From Clostridia bacterium (GTDB lineage Bacteria; Bacillota; Clostridia; Oscillospirales; CAG-382): a stretch of DNA of 64,000 nucleotides. The notes under the pieces are model-generated. The model saw nothing but the letters and a program-made list of their open reading frames with translations, ran no database searches and was not told where the DNA came from. The position numbers and the translations under genes were made by a program. This document shows positions 31,419 to 41,407 of the stretch, in pieces; position 1 is the first letter of the stretch, and each line of letters begins with the position of its first letter. The stretch spans positions 1 through 64,000 of the forward strand of contig JAFTIR010000039.1 in assembly GCA_017456765.1 (NCBI GenBank), given 5' to 3'.

Positions 31419-32162
31419 ATGATTGAATTTAAGAACGTATCCAAAACATATGACAACAGAGAATACGTCCTCAACGATGTGAATCTTCGTATTGAGGATG
31501 GAGAATTTGTTTTTATAGTGGGAAAATCGGGCTCAGGTAAAACCACGCTTACAAAGCTTCTTCTGAGAGAAGAAAAGGTGAGCTCGGGAAGAATTGTTAT
31601 AAACGGTTTCCGCCTTGATAAGATGAGAAAAGGAAAGGTGCCGTATCTCAGAAGAGAAATCGGTATGGTTTTTCAGGACTTCCGTCTTTTCCCAAAGAAA
31701 AACGTATATGAAAATGTTGCTTTTGCCATGCAGGTTATTGGTGCATCTTCGAGTTCTATAAAGAAAAGAGTGCCGTTTTTCTTGAACCTTGTGGGGCTTT
31801 CAAATAAGATGAAATCCTTTCCCACACAGCTTTCGGGAGGCGAGCAGCAGAGAGTTGCCCTTGCACGTGCCATTGTAAATAATCCCAATATTATTATTGC
31901 GGACGAGCCTACAGGTAACCTCGACCCGGAAATGAGCCGTGAAATCATGGACCTTCTCATGACACTCAACGAAAAACTCGGAAAGACAGTCATCGTTGTA
32001 ACTCATGAGCAGAATCTTGTAAGCATGTGCAACAAAAGAGTTATAACTATAGGCGAGGGCGGAATTGTAAGCGACATTCCTTCACACCCTTGTGATTTTG
32101 TGAAAAAAGATGAGGAAGAAAACCTTGTCGAAGAAACGGGCGGTGCAGAAAATGAAGTTTAG
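31419..32162 (+). CDS. ftsE: Cell division ATP-binding protein FtsE
   Basis: A 247-residue ABC ATPase. Walker A is [11 protein letters not shown], the signature [15 protein letters not shown], and Walker [13 protein letters not shown]. The sequence start [13 protein letters not shown] is typical of FtsE. It drives FtsX to activate a peptidoglycan hydrolase at the division site or side wall. The C-terminal 20 residues are an acidic extension. It overlaps ftsX by 11 bases. Confidence 0.95.
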
Positions 32163-33048
32163 ACTTTTCACCTTCATTAAAGAGGGCTTCAAAGGCTTTT
32201 TCAGAAACGGTCTTATGAGTATTGCTTCAATTCTTGTTCTGTTTTCGTCGCTTTTCCTAATTGGTATTTTCACAACTCTTATACGAAATGTAAACTATAA
32301 TCTCGATGAGATGCAGGATTTCAAGGAGCTTATCTGCTATATGGAGCTTGATGCGACCGACGAGCAGATTGCGAATGCGCAAACCGAAATCAATGGCTTC
32401 AGTCATGCTACAAAAGTTACATTTGTTTCCAAAGAAGAGGCACTTGAAAAGGAAAGACAGAAGTATAACAACCAAGAATATAAACAACTTTTTGAAATGT
32501 ATGAAAACGGCAGAGCAAATCCTCTTCCCGATGCCTTCAGAGTTGAATACGATTCGGTAAGCAGCCTTGATACCTTGGAGGAACAGCTTATCCGTGTTGA
32601 CGGTGTTGAAAGTATCCGTAACAGCAACGAAATTGCGCAAAACATTGAAAAATTAAAGAACATTATCACAATCGGCGGCACCTGGCTTATGGTTCTGTTG
32701 GTTGTAGTATCGGTGTTTGTTATCGCAAATACGATTAAAATTACGTATCATTCAAGAGAGCTTGAAATCGGAATAATGAGATATATCGGCGCAACAAAGT
32801 ATTATATAACAATGCCATTTGTTGTTGAAAGTATAATAATATCCGCGGTTGCAGCGGGACTCGGTTATCTTGCACAGTGGTATACTTATACTCGTTTTGT
32901 TGAAGGGATTACTGCAAAGTACCAGATAATAAAGGTAATTCCTTTTGCTGAAATGAATGATTTGTTCCTTATTATTTATTTTGGTGCCGGTCTTTTTATA
33001 GGTGTATTCGGCAGTATAGTCACAATCAGAAAGTACATGAAAGTGTAA
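32152..33048 (+). CDS. ftsX: Cell division protein FtsX
   Basis: A 298-residue membrane protein with the FtsX layout: one N-terminal helix (about residues 22-44), an extracellular domain of about 110 residues that binds the hydrolase partner, and three C-terminal helices with HSRELEIGIMRYIGATKYY. The ATG at 32152 overlaps the ftsE end and gives the normal length; a longer form has no support. The M23 hydrolase 25 bases downstream is the likely partner. Confidence 0.95.
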   Translation: MKFRLFTFIKEGFKGFFRNGLMSIASILVLFSSLFLIGIFTTLIRNVNYNLDEMQDFKELICYMELDATDEQIANAQTEINGFSHATKVTFVSKEEALEKERQKYNNQEYKQLFEMYENGRANPLPDAFRVEYDSVSSLDTLEEQLIRVDGVESIRNSNEIAQNIEKLKNIITIGGTWLMVLLVVVSVFVIANTIKITYHSRELEIGIMRYIGATKYYITMPFVVESIIISAVAAGLGYLAQWYTYTRFVEGITAKYQIIKVIPFAEMNDLFLIIYFGAGLFIGVFGSIVTIRKYMKV

Positions 33049-33073
33049 TTTGTCAGAAAGGAGGGCTTTTCGG

Positions 33074-34282
33074 ATGTCATATAGGAGCCGCAGGTTCATC
33101 GGAACTTTTGCAATGATTGTTGTAATGAGTTTGGTTACTGTTTTTCTTATGTGTTTTGATACAGTGAGCGTTTCGGCAACTTCTGCAAGCAGCGGAGTTT
33201 CCATACACGAACTCGAAAACAGTTTGAAAAATGCGCAGGCTGAGGAAAAGAAATTAAAACAGTTAAAGCAAGACGCTGCAGCACAGGTGGCATCTTATGA
33301 GGCCCAGATACAAGAACTTGACAGCGAAATATCCAATCTTACCGAACAGTTGACACTTGTTGAAAGACTTTTCGAACAGTGGAATCTGGACAAGGAAGAG
33401 ACGGAGAAGAATATCGCTTCACTTGAAGAAAAAAAAGAACATGAAATTCAGGCATTTGAATCAATGCTGAGAATGTCATATCAGTATGGCTCAGATACAT
33501 ACTTTAATCTGATTTTCGGCTCTCAGGATATAGGAGATTTTCTCTCAAGGGCAGACCTTATCGGATATCATCTCAAAGCAAATGATAACATTCTTGACAG
33601 TCTTTCGGGTACTATAAATGAACTTGAGACTGCCAACGAACAGTATACAAAGTCTATCAATAAAATAGACAGTTACTCAAATCAGCAAAAAGAGCTTCAG
33701 GCGCAGCTTGAAGAACGAAGTGAATTTGCAAGACAGAAAAAGCTCGAATTTGAAGCGGACAGAAAGAAGTATGACGAGCAGCTCAGTGCAAAGAGTGCTG
33801 AAATGGCTGATATGCAGGCACAAATCCAGGCATATTATGCAGAACAGCTGAAGAACGGAAACACTCAAAAGTACGAGGGCGGCACATTCTTTATTCCTCT
33901 TCCCATAGGAAGCTATAGATTAACATCGCAGTTTGAAGTAAGAACAAGCCCGATTACGGGTAAAATAGAAAGCCACAACGGTCTCGATATGGCGGCTCCC
34001 GGCGGAACCCAGATTTACGCTGCAGCCGGCGGAACGGTAATTGACTCAAGATATAGTAACTCTTGGGGAAATGTCATACAGATTGACCACGGCGGAGGAC
34101 TTGTGACTCTCTATGCTCATTGTAGCTATAGGGGAGTTCAGAAGGGACAGACTGTAGCCAAGGGTACGCCTATAGGAAAAGTAGGAACAACAGGTTGGTC
34201 AACGGGAAATCATCTGCATTTTACCGTTTATGAAAACGGAGTTGCGGTGAATCCTCTGAAATACCTGCCTTCAAACGTTTAA
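33074..34282 (+). CDS. FtsEX-associated coiled-coil M23 peptidoglycan hydrolase (EnvC-like)
   Basis: A 402-residue protein with an N-terminal membrane helix or signal (residues 9-33), a long coiled coil (about 40-260) of the kind that docks on FtsX, and a C-terminal LytM/M23 domain. The zinc motifs HNGLDMAAPGG, YAHC and HLHFTVYENG are all present, so the enzyme is probably active, unlike E. coli EnvC. AAAGGAGGG precedes the ATG at 33074. It follows ftsX and ends before a terminator. Confidence 0.93.
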   Translation: MSYRSRRFIGTFAMIVVMSLVTVFLMCFDTVSVSATSASSGVSIHELENSLKNAQAEEKKLKQLKQDAAAQVASYEAQIQELDSEISNLTEQLTLVERLFEQWNLDKEETEKNIASLEEKKEHEIQAFESMLRMSYQYGSDTYFNLIFGSQDIGDFLSRADLIGYHLKANDNILDSLSGTINELETANEQYTKSINKIDSYSNQQKELQAQLEERSEFARQKKLEFEADRKKYDEQLSAKSAEMADMQAQIQAYYAEQLKNGNTQKYEGGTFFIPLPIGSYRLTSQFEVRTSPITGKIESHNGLDMAAPGGTQIYAAAGGTVIDSRYSNSWGNVIQIDHGGGLVTLYAHCSYRGVQKGQTVAKGTPIGKVGTTGWSTGNHLHFTVYENGVAVNPLKYLPSNV

Positions 34283-34291
34283 TTTTATAAA

Positions 34292-34326
34292 ACTACGGCG
34301 GTTTTGCTCACCGCCGTGAGTTTGTT
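34292..34326 (+). terminator. Terminator after the M23 gene
   Basis: ACGGCGGT-TTTGCTC-ACCGCCGT hairpin followed by GAGTTTGTTT. It lies 33 bases before the S41 peptidase start and may only partly stop transcription. Confidence 0.7.
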
Positions 34327-34358
34327 TATATACCCGAGAAAGAAACAGAGGTGCGAGA

Positions 34359-35588
34359 ATGAAAAAACTTGTTTCATGTTTACCTGTTGTTGTGTTTTTT
34401 ATTGTGTCGGCATGTTTTCTGACATTTCAGGTGACATATACAATGACAGACAATTTCTGGAAAAGCAGAATAGATGATATGCTCAACACTTCGGGGGCAG
34501 ATATTTCGCAGGGACTGTCGGAATTATCTGAAACTGTCGATAAAAATTATTTGTATCCGTTGGATGAAAAAACGTTGACAGCCGGTGTCATTGAAGGATA
34601 TGTCAAGGCACTTCCTGACAGCTTTTCAATGTACATGGATGAGAACGAGTATCGAAATTATCTTGATTTTGAAAATGTGGTAAGCAATGTTGGTATAGGT
34701 GTGAACACACTTTACGATTCTTCGCTTGACGGTATATGTGTGATAAATGTGTATAAGGGTTCTCCCGCAGAATCTGCAGGAATTGTTCCCGGTGACCTTA
34801 TTGTCGGCGTCAATGGAGTCCAGGTGAAACAGCTTGGTTATTACGGTGTTATGGCTGAGCTTGGTACGGGCAGTGAAAATGAGAAGGTTATTGTCGATGT
34901 CAGGAAAAGGACAGGAACTGACGTATCCTTTACACTTTCCAAAAGTAAGGTGGATGCCAAAAGAATTGAGGGGCAAAAGCTCAAAAACAAAATTGGTCTT
35001 ATTACTATACGGGGATTTGAAACGGGCGACGAAGAAGCCTTCAAGGAAGAAATGCGTTCTCTTATAACCTCGGACTGCGAAAAATTTGTTATAGATGTCA
35101 GAAATAATTCGGGTGGAAACATAGAGACTGTCTCTAAAATACTTGATTTCCTTATGCCGGAGGGAAATATGTTTGCAATTACCGATAAGGCGGGGGCGAA
35201 AAATACAATTATTTCCGATGCCAACTCGGTTCCGTATCCGCTTGCAGTGCTTGTCAATGAAAGGACTGTTTGTGGAGCGGAGGTGTTTGCTTCGGTTTTG
35301 GCATCAGGTGAAACCACAAGACTTTTCGGTGTTCGAACATACGGAAAAGCTTCTAATCAGAGCGTGTTTAAACTTACCGGCGGCGGTGCTGTAAGCCTTT
35401 CAACAACGAAATTTATACCGTCCTCAGAAGCTGATTTTGATATAAACGGTGTCATTCCCGATGAAACGGTTGACCTTTCCGATGATGCAAAGCTTCGTTT
35501 TACGTCGCTTCCGTCAGAGGAAGATGCACAGCTTCAGGCGGCAATAGAGTATCTTAAAACACAGAAACAGACATCAGTAAAGGATTAA
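34359..35588 (+). CDS. S41 (C-terminal processing) peptidase with Cys in the nucleophile position
   Basis: A 409-residue protein with an N-terminal membrane anchor (residues 6-30), a PDZ domain (about 100-170; SPAESAGIVPGDLIVGVNG) and an S41 core. The family nucleophile Ser, three residues before a conserved Glu and 25 before the catalytic Lys, is replaced by Cys305 (TGT at 35271-35273) in RTVCGAEVF. Lys330 and Gln334 (YGKASNQ) are in place. Family members trim exported proteins and hydrolase regulators. GAGGTGCGAG precedes the ATG. Activity as a Cys-Lys enzyme or loss of activity are both possible. Confidence 0.9.
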   Translation: MKKLVSCLPVVVFFIVSACFLTFQVTYTMTDNFWKSRIDDMLNTSGADISQGLSELSETVDKNYLYPLDEKTLTAGVIEGYVKALPDSFSMYMDENEYRNYLDFENVVSNVGIGVNTLYDSSLDGICVINVYKGSPAESAGIVPGDLIVGVNGVQVKQLGYYGVMAELGTGSENEKVIVDVRKRTGTDVSFTLSKSKVDAKRIEGQKLKNKIGLITIRGFETGDEEAFKEEMRSLITSDCEKFVIDVRNNSGGNIETVSKILDFLMPEGNMFAITDKAGAKNTIISDANSVPYPLAVLVNERTVCGAEVFASVLASGETTRLFGVRTYGKASNQSVFKLTGGGAVSLSTTKFIPSSEADFDINGVIPDETVDLSDDAKLRFTSLPSEEDAQLQAAIEYLKTQKQTSVKD

Positions 35589-35632: not shown

Positions 35633-35661
35633 TGTACAAATGTGGTATTGTATGTTATAAT
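35633..35661 (+). promoter_or_regulatory. Promoter of rlmB
   Basis: TGTACA, 17-base spacer, TATAAT. Confidence 0.6.
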
Positions 35662-35704: not shown

Positions 35705-36565
35705 ATGAGTAATAACAGATTGGTTGGCAAAAAAAAGGATCATAAAGGTGCAAACGGCAAAAAAGGCTTCTACGCCGAAAGCCGCAGGGGCACAAAACAG
35801 TATAATGACGGAAACGGCTATGAGGAAGGGCTTGAAAACGGCTCTGTTCCCGGAAGAAATGCTGTAAGAGAACTGCTGAAATCGGGAAGAACTGTTGAAA
35901 AAATTTATGTGCAGAGCGGAGAACGGGAAGGCTCAATTACCGTTCTTGCGGCAGAAGCAATAAAAAGAGGAATTCCTCTTATCGAGGTTGAAAAGGCAAA
36001 GCTCGATAAGCTCTGCGGTTATGAACAGCATCAGGGAATTGTTGCGATTGCTTCCGAAAAAGAGTATGTTGAAATTGAAGATGTGCTTAAGATTGCCGAG
36101 GACAGAGGCGAAAAGCCGCTTATAGTAATTGCGGATAACGTATCGGATCCTCACAATCTTGGCGCGATTATACGCTGTGCTGAGGGCGCAGGCGCCCATG
36201 GCGTTGTTATCCCAAAAAGACGAAGTGCGTGTATTACACCTGCGGTTGCAAAGGCGAGTGCCGGTGCGACGGAGCATCTTGCGTGTGTTAAATGTGTAAA
36301 TGTTACCGAAACAATAAAAAAACTCAAAGAATACGGTCTCTGGGTGTTTGCCGCTGAGGCTGACGGTGAGGATTATACCAAGGTTGACTATACGATACCT
36401 TGTGCTATTGTTGTTGGCAGTGAAGAAAACGGTGTTTCGGCACTTGTAAAGAAAAACTGCGACTATATTGTTTCTCTTCCCATGAGAGGAAATGTAAATT
36501 CGTTAAATGTTTCGACTGCTGCTGCTGTGCTTCTTTATGAGGCAATAAGGCAGAGGGGTTATTAA
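35705..36565 (+). CDS. rlmB: 23S rRNA (guanosine-2251-2'-O)-methyltransferase family protein
   Basis: A 286-residue TrmH-type SPOUT methyltransferase. A basic N-terminal extension of about 45 residues precedes PGRNAVRELLKSGRTVEKIYV, the substrate-binding domain. The knot domain has IADNVSDPHNLGAIIRCAEGAGAHGVVIPKR, VVGSEENGVSALV and LPMRGNVNSLNVSTAAAVLLYE. AAAAGGAAG precedes the ATG. It is followed closely by the pseudo-ATPase gene. Confidence 0.92.
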   Translation: MSNNRLVGKKKDHKGANGKKGFYAESRRGTKQYNDGNGYEEGLENGSVPGRNAVRELLKSGRTVEKIYVQSGEREGSITVLAAEAIKRGIPLIEVEKAKLDKLCGYEQHQGIVAIASEKEYVEIEDVLKIAEDRGEKPLIVIADNVSDPHNLGAIIRCAEGAGAHGVVIPKRRSACITPAVAKASAGATEHLACVKCVNVTETIKKLKEYGLWVFAAEADGEDYTKVDYTIPCAIVVGSEENGVSALVKKNCDYIVSLPMRGNVNSLNVSTAAAVLLYEAIRQRGY

Positions 36566-36582: not shown

Positions 36583-39069
36583 ATGATGCAGAACAACACA
36601 GATTCCATGAACAAAACAAAAGAAATACCGGGAGTACGTGCCAATGAAAATGTGCAGGAACAAGAAGTACGCACCGATGTTCATGAGGACCAGCAGAGCC
36701 TTTTTGATGCGGAAAACGCTTTTTCCGAATCAATACTTGTCGAAAAGGATATTGTTGAAATAAACTCGTCGGAAACCAAAGAAAAGGCTGCGCATAATAG
36801 CGGAGATACGGCGGTGTTTGATTTGCCTGAAAAGAACACAGAAGAAAAAGATGTTTCGGTCAAAGAACTTCAGGACTCTGCTAAAGACTATTACGATGCG
36901 ACTCATTCCGATAGTATAGAAGAAAAAGTCAATGAGCTTTGCAAGCTCGCTGACAAAGGATTCGGTGAAGACGAAACCGAAGGTTTTGTTGTTGAAAAGT
37001 CGGAAGTTGTCATTGATGAAAAAAAGAAGAAAAAGGACAGAAAGCTGCGACGCCGTGGAGTTATTCTTGACGATGACATGGAGATGCTTTCGGGCGGTCT
37101 TGTTTCGACGGCTGTGTCGGAGGAACAGGCTTTCGAAGATGTAAAAACCTGGAATCCGAACCAAGAAAACGAAATAGATACAGATGAGCCTGTGCTTTCG
37201 GAAGAGCGGGGTGTTGAACACAAAAATCCGCTTGGAATTTATGATGAAACCGATAATGAGAATGAGGAAGAATCCGAAGAGGATAAGCTGATAAAGGCAC
37301 TCGGAGGTTCAAAAAAGCATTTTAAGACATTTGAAGCTGTATTTGGCGATGATGAGCCTGAGGTGGAATATACCGACAGAAATCAGGAGGCAACTATTCT
37401 CAAGGATCTAAGGAAGGGTGCTATATTATCGGCGGTGTCCGTTGTTCTTACTTTCATTGCAACAGCAATTTGTTTTTATTTTGAATTTGCTGCAGGCACA
37501 AAGCTTGCACATCCTGCATTTTTTGAGGCGGGCAAATTCGGCGTAACATATTCAATGAGTATGCTCCAGATAATGTTTATCTGTGTAATTTTCAACCTTG
37601 ATGGTATGAGAAGAGCATTTAAGGGACTGAGACCTGCCAAGCCTTCAGCAGAAGGTTTCTGTGCGGCGGCAGTGGTTGTGTGTACCGTACATAGCGTACT
37701 TTCTGCGATACTTGTGTCTCACAGCACAGAACTCAAATCCTTCTGCTCGGTCGGATGCCTGTCATTGCTGTTCCTTTCGGTAAACAGCTTCATTAAGGCA
37801 CATACATCCCTTACTGCGTTTTGCTTTGCTGCCTCAAAGGCTCCGAAATATTCGTCTGTTGATCTTGACGTGGCTTCTGGAGAAGCCAAAGCCTTTGAAA
37901 AGTACCTTGACAAAGAAACATCACTTTTCACAGTAGGAAAGAGTGATTTTGTAGACGGATTTTTCAAAAAATGTATGTCAGTACCCAAAGCCTCAAAGAA
38001 TACTCTGAAACTTGTGCTTTTGGGATTATTTGTAGCGATTGTGACAGGCGTTGTATGCGGAGTAATCAAGGGAGCATATTCCGGCGTGTGTACATTTACG
38101 GTAGTATGTCTTGCATCTTTCCCTGCAAACGCGCTTATTTCAACGGCACTTCCGTTTTTTGCAGCCTCATCAAAGGCTAAAAAAACACAGACTGCATACA
38201 TAGGTGAAGCGGCATGCGATGTGTATGAGAGCGCGGGAGTTATATCCTTTGACGACACAGAAGTTTTTCCTGCCAAGAGTGTTAAGGTGTCCAGCATAAG
38301 AACGTATGGAGATAACCGTATTGACAAGGTGATTCTTTATATGGCAAGAATTTTTGACAAGGTTGAGGGACCTCTTTCGTTTGTTTTTGCAAATTCGGTG
38401 CAGAGTCTTGAAGACCGCGATATGGATGTGCAGATTTCAGAGCATTTTTCTGACGGAATCAGTGCCAAGGTTGATACAAGAGAGGTTCTTGTGGGAACGG
38501 ACAACTTCATGAGACTTTATGATGTTGAAACACCCCTTGATAATATTGATGAATCGTTTACACGCTCGCTTGGAAGTATAATGTATATGGCGGTAGACGG
38601 AAAGCTCGCGGCGAAATTCTACATTAAGTATACGATGTCCAGAAACTTCGAGCCTATTTTGAGAGCATTTTATGATGCAGGTATCTGTGTTGGTATAAAA
38701 ACGCATGATCCGTGTATTACAAATGAAATTGTTTGCGGAAACCTTAAGGGTAGCAATTATCCCGTTTCTGTTATAAAGAAGCATGACGAAAAGCAGGAAA
38801 ATGACGGTATTGCAAAGAGTACGGAGGGAGCAATCATTTCACTTTCCGGCACACACAATTTCCTTAAGGGCTTTATCAGACTTGATAATCTGAGAAATGT
38901 ATACCGTTCCAACACGATTATCAGTATTTTCTCGGCTATTGCAGGCGCTCTTCTGTCTGCATTTATGAGTGTTACGGGATTCTTTGGAATGGGAATAGTT
39001 ACGTTGATTGCATTCCAGCTTGTATGGTGTATTCCTACCGTTCTGTTCTCATTATTGTCAAAAAAATAA
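36583..39069 (+). CDS. Large acidic-N-terminus membrane protein resembling a degenerate P-type ATPase
   Basis: An 828-residue protein. Residues 1-270 are acidic and low in complexity apart from a basic KKKKKDRKLRRR patch near 147-158. Helices follow at about 283-305 and up to about 530. LASFPANALISTALPFF stands where P1-type ATPases have the CPCALGLATP helix; AGVISFDDTEVFP stands where FDKTGTLT would be (Asp557 kept, Lys and Gly lost); an N-domain-like part follows, then KTHDP (707-709) in place of TGD, and the GDG loop is missing. Two helices end the protein. It should not pump. AGGAGGTC precedes the ATG. Role unknown. Confidence 0.7.
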   Translation: MMQNNTDSMNKTKEIPGVRANENVQEQEVRTDVHEDQQSLFDAENAFSESILVEKDIVEINSSETKEKAAHNSGDTAVFDLPEKNTEEKDVSVKELQDSAKDYYDATHSDSIEEKVNELCKLADKGFGEDETEGFVVEKSEVVIDEKKKKKDRKLRRRGVILDDDMEMLSGGLVSTAVSEEQAFEDVKTWNPNQENEIDTDEPVLSEERGVEHKNPLGIYDETDNENEEESEEDKLIKALGGSKKHFKTFEAVFGDDEPEVEYTDRNQEATILKDLRKGAILSAVSVVLTFIATAICFYFEFAAGTKLAHPAFFEAGKFGVTYSMSMLQIMFICVIFNLDGMRRAFKGLRPAKPSAEGFCAAAVVVCTVHSVLSAILVSHSTELKSFCSVGCLSLLFLSVNSFIKAHTSLTAFCFAASKAPKYSSVDLDVASGEAKAFEKYLDKETSLFTVGKSDFVDGFFKKCMSVPKASKNTLKLVLLGLFVAIVTGVVCGVIKGAYSGVCTFTVVCLASFPANALISTALPFFAASSKAKKTQTAYIGEAACDVYESAGVISFDDTEVFPAKSVKVSSIRTYGDNRIDKVILYMARIFDKVEGPLSFVFANSVQSLEDRDMDVQISEHFSDGISAKVDTREVLVGTDNFMRLYDVETPLDNIDESFTRSLGSIMYMAVDGKLAAKFYIKYTMSRNFEPILRAFYDAGICVGIKTHDPCITNEIVCGNLKGSNYPVSVIKKHDEKQENDGIAKSTEGAIISLSGTHNFLKGFIRLDNLRNVYRSNTIISIFSAIAGALLSAFMSVTGFFGMGIVTLIAFQLVWCIPTVLFSLLSKK

Positions 39070-39080
39070 GGTAAATAAGA

Positions 39081-39108
39081 AATCCGCCGTTTTTACGGCG
39101 GATTTTTG
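39081..39108 (+). terminator. Terminator after the P-type-ATPase-like gene
   Basis: AATCCGCCG and CGGCGGATT hairpin followed by TTTTTG. Confidence 0.85.
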
Positions 39109-39116
39109 CACGCAAA

Positions 39117-39145
39117 AAATCGACACCGATAAGGTGTCGATTTCT
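39117..39145 (-). terminator. Terminator of glnN
   Basis: AAATCGACACC and GGTGTCGATTT form a hairpin with T-run on the minus strand. Confidence 0.85.
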
Positions 39146-39146
39146 T

Positions 39147-41237
39147 TTATATGTTGAAAAGTAATTCGCTGTATGTGGGAACAGGCCAGATTGTCTTGGG
39201 TACATGAGGCTCGATTTCATCAACGATTTCACGCATATTCTGCATGATTTCAAATATTTCATTTCGGAAGTATTCCGCTTTCTTGAGGGCATCGAAATCC
39301 TTCGGAACATTCTTGACATTATGTTCAAGAACCTTGCCTGTTTCGTAAAGCTTTTTGTTGAGAGAGGAAATCTTCGTAAGAAGCTCGGTTTCGGGGGTTG
39401 AATCAATAAAGTCTCCCACAGCCTTCTTTGCAGCGATGTCTCTTGCAAGATGTGCAGAGTATTCACAAATCGCCGGAATAATCTGCTTTTTCATCATGTC
39501 AACAAATGTGCGCGCCTCAATGTTGATTGTCTTTGAATATGTCTCAAGAAGAATTTCAAGACGGGAGTGCATTTCTGCTTCGCAGAATACCTTGTGAGAA
39601 GTAAAAAGCTCTATGTTCTGTTTGTCGACAAAGTGGGGGAGCGCTTCAACCGTATTTGCATAGTTGTGAAGTCCGCGTTTCTTAGCTTCTTCCTTCCATT
39701 CGTCGCTGTAACAGTTGCCGTTGTATATAATCCTCTTGTGAGCCTTGATTGTTTTTCTTATAAGCTCGTTGAGTGCCTTGGGGAAATCCGACGCCTTTTC
39801 GAGTTCATCGGCAAACTGTCTGAGCTCCTCAGCGACAATTGTGTTAAGAACAATGTTGGGGTCGGAAATCGACTGCGAAGAGCCGAGCATTCTGAACTCG
39901 AACTTGTTGCCTGTAAATGCAAAAGGACTTGTTCTGTTTCTGTCGGTTGTGTCCTTTGTGAATGTGGGAAGCACGTGAACGCCGATTTCCATTTTCTGCT
40001 TTTCAGCTCCGCCGTAGCTCTTGCCCGATTCGATTGCCGAAAGGATAGCCTCAAGCTCGTCCCCGATGAACATGGAAACGATTGCGGGAGGAGCTTCGCC
40101 TGCACCGAGTCTGTGATCATTTCCTGCGGATGCAACTGAAATCCTGAGTAAATCCTGATATTCGTCAACCGCTTTGATAACCGCAACGAGGAAGAGCAGG
40201 AACTGTGCATTTTCGTGGGGCGTTTTGCCTGCCTTGAGAAGACTTTCGCCGGTATCTGCGTTTATTGACCAGTTGTTGTGCTTGCCGCTTCCGTTAACGC
40301 CTGCAAAAGGCTTTTCATGAAGAAGGCAAACAAGTCCGTGCTTGTCGGCAACCTTTCTCATGATTTCCATAATGAGCTGATTGTGGTCGGTTGCAATGTT
40401 GGTGCTCGAGAATATGGGAGCAAGCTCATGCTGTGCGGGAGCCGCCTCGTTGTGCTTTGTCTTTGAGAGAACGCCGAGCTTCCACAGTTCCTCGTCAAGC
40501 TCCTTCATGAACGCAGCAATTCTCGGCTTGATTGTACCAAAGTAGTGGTCGTCCATTTCCTGCCCCTTAGGGGGATTAGCACCGAAAAGTGTTCTTCCGC
40601 AGAAAATGAGGTCCTCTCTTTTGTTAAAGCTTTCTTTGTCAACAATGAAGTATTCCTGTTCTGCACCTGCCGAAGAAACAACACGCTTGACTGTATTGTT
40701 GCCAAAAAGGCGAAGTATACGAAGAGACTGTTCGTTGATTGCTTCCATAGAGTGAAGAAGAGGTGTCTTTTTGTCAAGAGCTTCTCCACCGTAGGAACAG
40801 AATACTGTTGGTATGTAGAGCGAGCCGTCCTTTACAAAGGCGTAGCTTGTGGGGTCCCATGCGGTGTAACCTCTTGCCTCAAAGGTGGCTCTGAGACCTC
40901 CCGAGGGGAAACTCGAAGCATCCGTCTCTCCCTTTATAAGCTCCTTGCCGGAAAATTCCATAATTACATGGCTGGGGGAGATGGGGGTGATAAAGCTGTC
41001 GTGCTTCTCGGCGGTAATGCCTGTAAGAGGTTGGAACCAGTGTGTGAAGTGGGTGGCTCCGTGTTCGACAGCCCAGTCCTTCATGGCGTTTGCAACAACA
41101 TTTGCAACACTCTTGTCAAGGTCTTCGCCGTCTTCTATTGTCTTGCGTAAGGATTTGTATACATCCTTTGGTAATTTGTCACGCATTACATCGTCGTTAA
41201 AAACGTTTGATGCAAAAATTTCGGGTACTGATGTCAT
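39147..41237 (-). CDS. glnN: Type III glutamine synthetase
   Basis: A 696-residue enzyme, the length of GSIII rather than the 450 residues of GSI. It has [31 protein letters not shown], the ammonia/ATP-site motif [14 protein letters not shown] and [16 protein letters not shown]. It makes glutamine from glutamate and ammonia and is the main ammonia-assimilating enzyme in many gut anaerobes. AAAGGAAAC precedes the ATG. It is a single-gene unit with a palindrome next to its promoter. Codon use indicates high expression. Confidence 0.97.
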
Positions 41238-41378: not shown

Positions 41379-41407
41379 TTGACAAAATTGCAAAAAAGTT
41401 GTATAAT
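41379..41407 (+). promoter_or_regulatory. Promoter of the serS T-box transcript
   Basis: TTGACA, 17-base spacer, TATAAT, a full consensus. Confidence 0.9.

Follow-up and report, generated by a model that had tools for sequence, protein, structure and literature searches.

Within the window (the whole 64,000-nucleotide stretch of DNA analysed here), the plus-strand gene at 36583–39069 encodes what we regard as almost certainly a pseudo-P1B ATPase of single origin, with its membrane part and N-domain intact, the residues of the phosphorylation cycle gone, a tight link to rlmB, and strong selection acting on it. P-type ATPases are textbook pumps; this dead pump is a near-universal, single-origin and strongly conserved gene of a whole order and not a one-genome curiosity. 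The host order, if it is Oscillospirales as we suspect, includes many abundant gut commensals.

The open reading frame is intact (828 codons, 828 amino acids). Its ATG start lies 17 bases past the rlmB stop, with AGGAGG 5 bases upstream. Because a promoter-like site stands 5′ of rlmB and two terminator-like hairpins stand 3′ of the pseudo-pump gene, the two genes look like one two-gene unit, as judged from consensus matches. The promoter-like site, 43 bases 5′ of the rlmB start, is suggestive only, as such sites are not in excess in the region (14 versus 12.9 in shuffles). The elements of this putative unit are:

35633–35661 (+): promoter-like site TGTACA-17-TATAAT, with TG before the second hexamer (consensus scan)
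35705–36565 (+): rlmB, 23S rRNA (guanosine 2′-O) methyltransferase, first gene of the unit (Pfam SpoU_methylase 3.1e-43, SpoU_sub_bind 2.3e-22)
36583–39069 (+): pseudo-P1B ATPase gene, 828 aa
39087–39143 (+): terminator-like hairpins closing the rlmB–pseudo-pump unit, at 39087–39101 and 39117–39143 (scan)

As a single query against Pfam, the window protein had no match at E 1, and a Pfam search with 47 divergent family members gave one weak match to E1-E2_ATPase only. In NCBIfam, the window protein hit the heavy-metal P-type ATPase model TIGR01525 (E 1.3e-8), scoring 34 bits where the cut-off is 346, and the same model matched 28 of 48 family members. The sole phmmer match in the PDB was the copper ATPase 3rfu (E 4e-4, residues 496–737). 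We built a family profile, A1, from 48 relatives and compared it with true P1B ATPases, almost all of which came from genomes of the same class, Clostridia. The hhalign comparison gave a probability of 100 and E 4.9e-44 over 502 columns, spanning the complete core (residues 276–828), so that sequence homology to the P1B superfamily covers the whole body: membrane part, P-domain and N-domain.

Predicted structures gave the same assignment. The AlphaFold2 model of the window protein had 501 residues at pLDDT ≥90, including most of the core at >90. Foldseek and VIA-align searches with it (residues 266–828) placed the CopA, ATP7B, HMA4, Cd-ATPase and ZntA structures on top, with a Foldseek E of 6.6e-16 against 4bbj, and Z 22.5 over 488 residues at rmsd 7.8 against CopA 3rfu. 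A high full-chain rmsd is expected because of domain movements, and single domains fit closely: the modelled N-domain matched the Menkes N-domain 2kmv over 124 residues at rmsd 2.6 Å and 20% identity. A second model, of a family member approximately 18% identical to the window protein, again had CopA 3rfu as its best match (Z 24.1, 480 residues, rmsd 9.4). The predicted structure contains MA, MB and M1–M6, with the P- and N-domains between M4 and M5. A reading of the window made earlier from the sequence alone (hereafter the sequence-only reading) had assigned the membrane part the order of a P1-type ATPase, and CopA, ATP7B, HMA4 and ZntA indeed outranked all other folds for both models; these two divergent members agreed in having a HAD-like P-domain and in showing no clear homology to another membrane family. 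By profile alignment and predicted structure, residues 266–828 are a P1B-type (copper/heavy-metal) ATPase by descent. The protein divides as follows:

36583–37377 (+): disordered acidic N-terminal arm, residues 1–265 (composition; pLDDT <50 over most of it)
36721–36747 (+): FSESILVEK, residues 47–55, the divergent copy of the arm motif in the window's genus (assigned by eye; one residue short and off pattern)
37378–37830 (+): helices matching MA, MB (kinked at 338), M1 and M2, residues 266–416 (model; CopA 3rfu alignment from residue 275)
37831–38001 (+): actuator domain remnant, residues 417–473, with the TGE-bearing core deleted (two strands and short helices in the model; profile alignment)
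38002–38184 (+): M3 and M4, residues 474–534; M4 breaks at Pro514 (CPC in CopA) and lacks the cysteines (model, family alignment)
38248–38268 (+): FDDTEVF, equivalent of the phosphorylation loop, residues 556–562, with the catalytic Asp position 557 variable in the family (profile alignment)
38278–38634 (+): full-size N-domain, residues 566–684, with the ATP-recognition His of SEHPL replaced (2kmv match; family counts)
38635–38850 (+): second half of the P-domain, residues 685–756, about 34 residues shorter and missing the GDGxND strands (family spacing)
38698–38709 (+): KTHD, equivalent of TGD, residues 706–709, family form TxDPNI, with Asp709 the most conserved residue
38851–39066 (+): M5 and M6, the last two helices, residues 757–828, with near-invariant Trp815 (model, alignment)

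The motif equivalences proposed from the sequence alone were borne out by hhalign, which pairs FPA with the CPC of P1B ATPases within LASFPANAL (residues 510–518), F556-D557-D558-T559-E560 with F-D-K-T-G within FDDTEVF, and T707-H-D709 with T-G-D within KTHD. The N-domain-like segment, which had been called small, turned out to be of full size: D558 and D709 are 151 residues apart, versus 153 in true P1B ATPases.

We counted catalytic residues over 99 distinct family members. The phosphorylation loop, F-D-K-T-G-T in active pumps, has become F-[ADTSN]-D-T-E-V-F-P, and DKTGT occurs in no member. Asp stands at the catalytic position 557 in 23 of the 99 and at the neighbouring position 558 in 77, with 8 having it at neither; residue 557 of the window protein happens to be Asp, so that its FDDTEVF is nearer to FDKTGTL than is the family at large. 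The sequence-only reading had seen neither an actuator TGE loop nor a GDG hinge, and comparison of the segments with those of true P1B ATPases traced both absences to deletion. Between M2 and M3, where the A-domain belongs, only 50–80 residues (median 63) are left, and the middle of a true A-domain, including TGE, has no counterpart in the family profile (hhalign). TGE is lacking at its expected place in the window protein, and the few TGE strings among the 99 members are scattered with no conserved position. GDG is likewise not at its expected place in the window protein, nor in the last 200 residues of any member (0/99). The TGD-equivalent Asp lies 68 residues before the first M5 Asn, versus 102 in true P1B ATPases, with GDGxND and its strands deleted.

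The remaining signatures have also been lost. TGD itself is broken by replacement of its Gly, with Thr or Ser at 707 and the Asp kept in 83/99; the His of the HP motif (position 596) is found in 0/99; the first Gly of the N-domain GxG survives in 4/99 and the second in 95/99; both CPC cysteines occur together in 0/99, with Pro514 kept in 79/99; and no N-terminal CxxC metal-binding domain was found in the family. No member has any full catalytic motif at its own place. What is kept is the full-size N-domain, all eight membrane helices and the residues G541, F562-P563, G625, G638, Y683, D709 (97/99) and W815. With the defining functional features of a P-type pump absent, the protein is, by its sequence, no P-type pump, and the E1–E2 cycle should be unable to run in its known form because the phosphorylation, dephosphorylation and hinge residues are absent. 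The earlier description of a pump fold turned into a non-catalytic membrane protein holds as far as loss of the catalytic loops across the 99 members is concerned; its further implication, that the family does nothing catalytic at all, is something we infer, and, with Asp709 and the acidic residue 560 well conserved, some residual chemistry stays conceivable.

In front of the pump body is the acidic N-terminus of about 270 residues that the sequence-only reading had described: 274 residues before TM1 in the window protein, with 27% D/E and a net charge of −39. Across the family, the arm is predicted to be disordered and has a median of 281 residues and 23% acidic residues, being short or near-neutral in a few members. 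Four members of one family (f23; L037, L072, L073, L139) have a very long arm, with a total protein length of up to about 1,200 aa. Near the start of the arm is a motif, [FY][ST]L[DE][DE]ILAE[FYIV], with the wider consensus [FY]-[ST]-[LVI]-[DE]-[DE]-I-L-[AE]-E-[FYIVA]. Its loose core was found in 49/99 members versus 1.0 expected by shuffling (maximum 5 in 200 shuffles), a test that somewhat overstates the strength of the motif as the pattern was written after viewing the sequences. In the second model, the motif forms a helix (residues 21–28) with confidence above that of its surroundings. The strict form FSL[DE][DE]IL[AE], searched at the DNA level, had five occurrences in 147 genomes. Because every one of these lies inside a pseudo-pump gene, the arm motif is, on this genome search, family-specific; by its form it is docking-like. 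The same search led us to reject the strict form as a proteome-wide recruitment tag. We also rejected a basic tail of RlmB as an electrostatic partner of the acidic arm: the RlmB tails of the order are short, with a median net charge of 0.

To survey the range of the gene, we searched genome samples with the family profile. Counting matches with E below 1e-40, we found it in 291 of 297 nearly complete genomes of the host order, representing 143 of 145 genera and 25 families, with one match per genome in all but two of the 291 carriers. Gene starts were set mechanically, and many of the genomes are metagenome assemblies. In a class sample of 291 genomes, 12 genomes of the host order matched at full length (E 5e-92 to 2e-256); the matches listed from other orders span profile positions ~443–738 only and are no better than 1e-37, and the highest-ranking of them, which carry DKTGT and GDGIND, are conventional CPC pumps. 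In a phylum sample of 299 genomes, three matched at 1e-40, all from the host order. The gene was not found outside this order in any genome of the two samples.

In a tree of 30 family members and 35 P-type ATPases, the family formed one clade with 100/100 support. Because it is one fully supported branch, the family has, on this tree, a single origin, which dates to the order's ancestor or earlier. Pairwise dN/dS, calculated where dS was unsaturated, was about 0.02–0.21 for the core and about 0.03–0.29 for the arm. The gene is under strong purifying selection and is not decaying. Of the six genomes without it, in which single assembly gaps are possible, G347 has a contig that stops just within the gene, and the other five also lack a clear rlmB. 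Two of these, G371 and G421, belong to the same genus, which suggests a joint loss of the pseudo-pump gene and rlmB. In G057 (L040), an in-frame TGA splits the open reading frame, which may be an error of assembly or a frame that broke recently.

Linkage to rlmB was assessed at 101 distinct family loci, of which 95 were readable upstream (the exceptions were L008, L010, L069, L072, L073 and L164). The suggestion that the gene always follows rlmB proved accurate for 94 of these 95. At 90 of the 101 loci, rlmB lies ≤300 bases upstream on the same strand, mostly with gaps of <65 bases and with several 4-base overlaps; four further loci (L050, L150, L161, L040) were counted as adjacent despite over-extended ORF starts or a broken frame. 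The sole true exception was G037, in which the pseudo-pump gene (L054) and rlmB (L167) are on different contigs.

The best overall explanation, and one that we consider probable, is a single-origin pseudo-P1B ATPase that serves as a non-catalytic membrane scaffold or receptor. In the ancestor of one Clostridia order, a P1B metal ATPase gene would have been captured downstream of rlmB; its product would then have lost the catalytic loops, and the order would have retained it in its core genome as a membrane protein without catalysis. Held by the pump body at the inner membrane face, the N-domain, without its normal ATP contacts, would serve as a docking surface, and the acidic arm with its short helical motif would reach into the cytosol and capture a partner. 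The putative co-expression with RlmB points to a partner that may work close to the membrane in translation or in the maturation of ribosomes, with RlmB or the ribosome as first candidates. We infer the scaffold or receptor role from the arm and from the parts that have been lost; for such a role in general, we see the chances as evenly balanced. Ribosome maturation or translation is the first place to look because of the constant RlmB linkage, although position alone is no proof: the linkage could simply reflect an inherited operon, and G037 has the two genes separated. RlmB or the ribosome as partner is a tentative and rather doubtful proposal, and the specific version, in which the pseudo-pump uses the arm and its [FY][ST]L[DE][DE]ILAE motif to tether RlmB, the large ribosomal subunit or a translation factor to the membrane, is unlikely as it stands.

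Other functions can be proposed for the same set of retained and lost parts. Without coupling to ATP, the membrane part might still let a metal or another ion through, as a passive transporter or channel gated by the N-domain and arm. The eight helices all persist, as do the kink in MB and the M4 break at its proline, and a dead enzyme with a functioning membrane path is conceivable; yet both CPC cysteines are gone from every member, the N-terminal CxxC metal-binding domain is missing, and few membrane residues other than Pro514, Pro524 and Trp815 are conserved, unlike what is expected of a selective path, which together leave us with little belief in conduction. The conserved acidic residues raise instead the prospect of residual HAD-type chemistry, as a membrane phosphatase or phosphate sensor. 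The loop D-x-[DE]-h-F-P resembles the DxD of HAD phosphatases and has T707 and D709 close by, and conservation is high at 560 (acidic in 91/99), 558 (D/E in 82/99), 709 (D, 97/99) and 707 (S/T, 83/99). A nucleophile should be invariant, however, and the 8 members without Asp at either 557 or 558 break this rule; moreover, every member has lost HAD motif IV, the metal-binding GDGxND, together with its strands. Such chemistry is improbable.

Pseudoenzymes often regulate active relatives, and true P-type ATPases are present in the same genome, so the protein could pair with an active P1B or other P-type pump and tune it. P1B pumps are mostly known to act alone, though, and the linked gene is rlmB, with linkage to pump genes not seen; we find this regulator quite improbable. 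A decaying pseudogene or an assembly artefact would account for the lost catalytic motifs and for the in-frame TGA in G057, but the gene is intact in nearly all of the 291 genomes and its dN/dS is well below 1, and we attach next to no weight to decay.

Compared with known systems, the pseudo-pump is closest to the P1B copper ATPases (CopA, ATP7B, HMA4; TIGR01525, TIGR01511), its best structural and profile matches, with which it shares the helix order, kinked MB, M4 proline break, fold and size of the N-domain, and frame of the P-domain. It differs from them in lacking the phospho-Asp motif, TGE, GDGxND, HP and CPC, and in having a disordered, usually acidic arm where they have the N-terminal CxxC metal-binding domain. 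KdpB, the P1A ATPase of KdpFABC, is a fold match and an example of a P-type pump inside a larger membrane complex, but is catalytically active and a weaker match than P1B. HAD phosphatases have the P-domain core and the D-x-[DE] loop in common with the pseudo-pump, which is unlike them in missing motif IV and in its non-invariant nucleophile. A degenerate P-type ATPase body has likewise been kept in evolution in the apicomplexan guanylate cyclases (PfGC-beta, TgATPaseP-GC), which are described as carrying a degenerate P4-ATPase-like body (PMC6592433; PMC7858053); for P. falciparum GC-alpha, activity of the ATPase domain is reported to be essential (PMC7858053). Being eukaryotic, of P4 type and fused to a cyclase, these are an independent case.

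Pfam and NCBIfam have no model for the family, their best match being the weak 'heavy metal ATPase' one, and we found no report of a bacterial pseudo-P-type ATPase family in the literature searched, which included few subscription journals. If the membrane-receptor reading is true, this would be, as far as we found, the first prokaryotic core pseudo-P-type ATPase. The gene is a marker for the order, and the family offers a clean system for how a transport machine gets reused after its chemistry is removed.

Several neighbouring genes were considered as context. A divergent EF-G-like gene (GTP_EFTU, EFG_III, EFG_IV, EFG_C) lies 3′ of the pseudo-pump gene in several of the order's families, for example:

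L049, 3586–5667: EF-G-like gene
L058, 3294–5363: EF-G-like gene

Similar placements occur in many members. We rejected it as a fixed partner: it is mostly >90 bases away and is absent from the window. Directly upstream of rlmB in the window (31419–35588) is a row of genes for an FtsE-type ABC ATPase, FtsX, an M23 peptidase and an S41 (CtpA-like, PDZ) protease, also present in the sister genome G003 and not seen in other families. Being found in the window's genus only, the row was rejected as meaningful context. A terminator-like hairpin (34294–34318) follows the M23 gene, and the promoter-like site then precedes rlmB. On the other side of the unit is a minus-strand gene at 39147–41237, which we take to be glutamine-synthetase-like. 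Just beyond its start side and oriented away from it, at 41379–41407, is a perfect 12/12 match to a sigma-70 type promoter, TTGACA-17-TATAAT.
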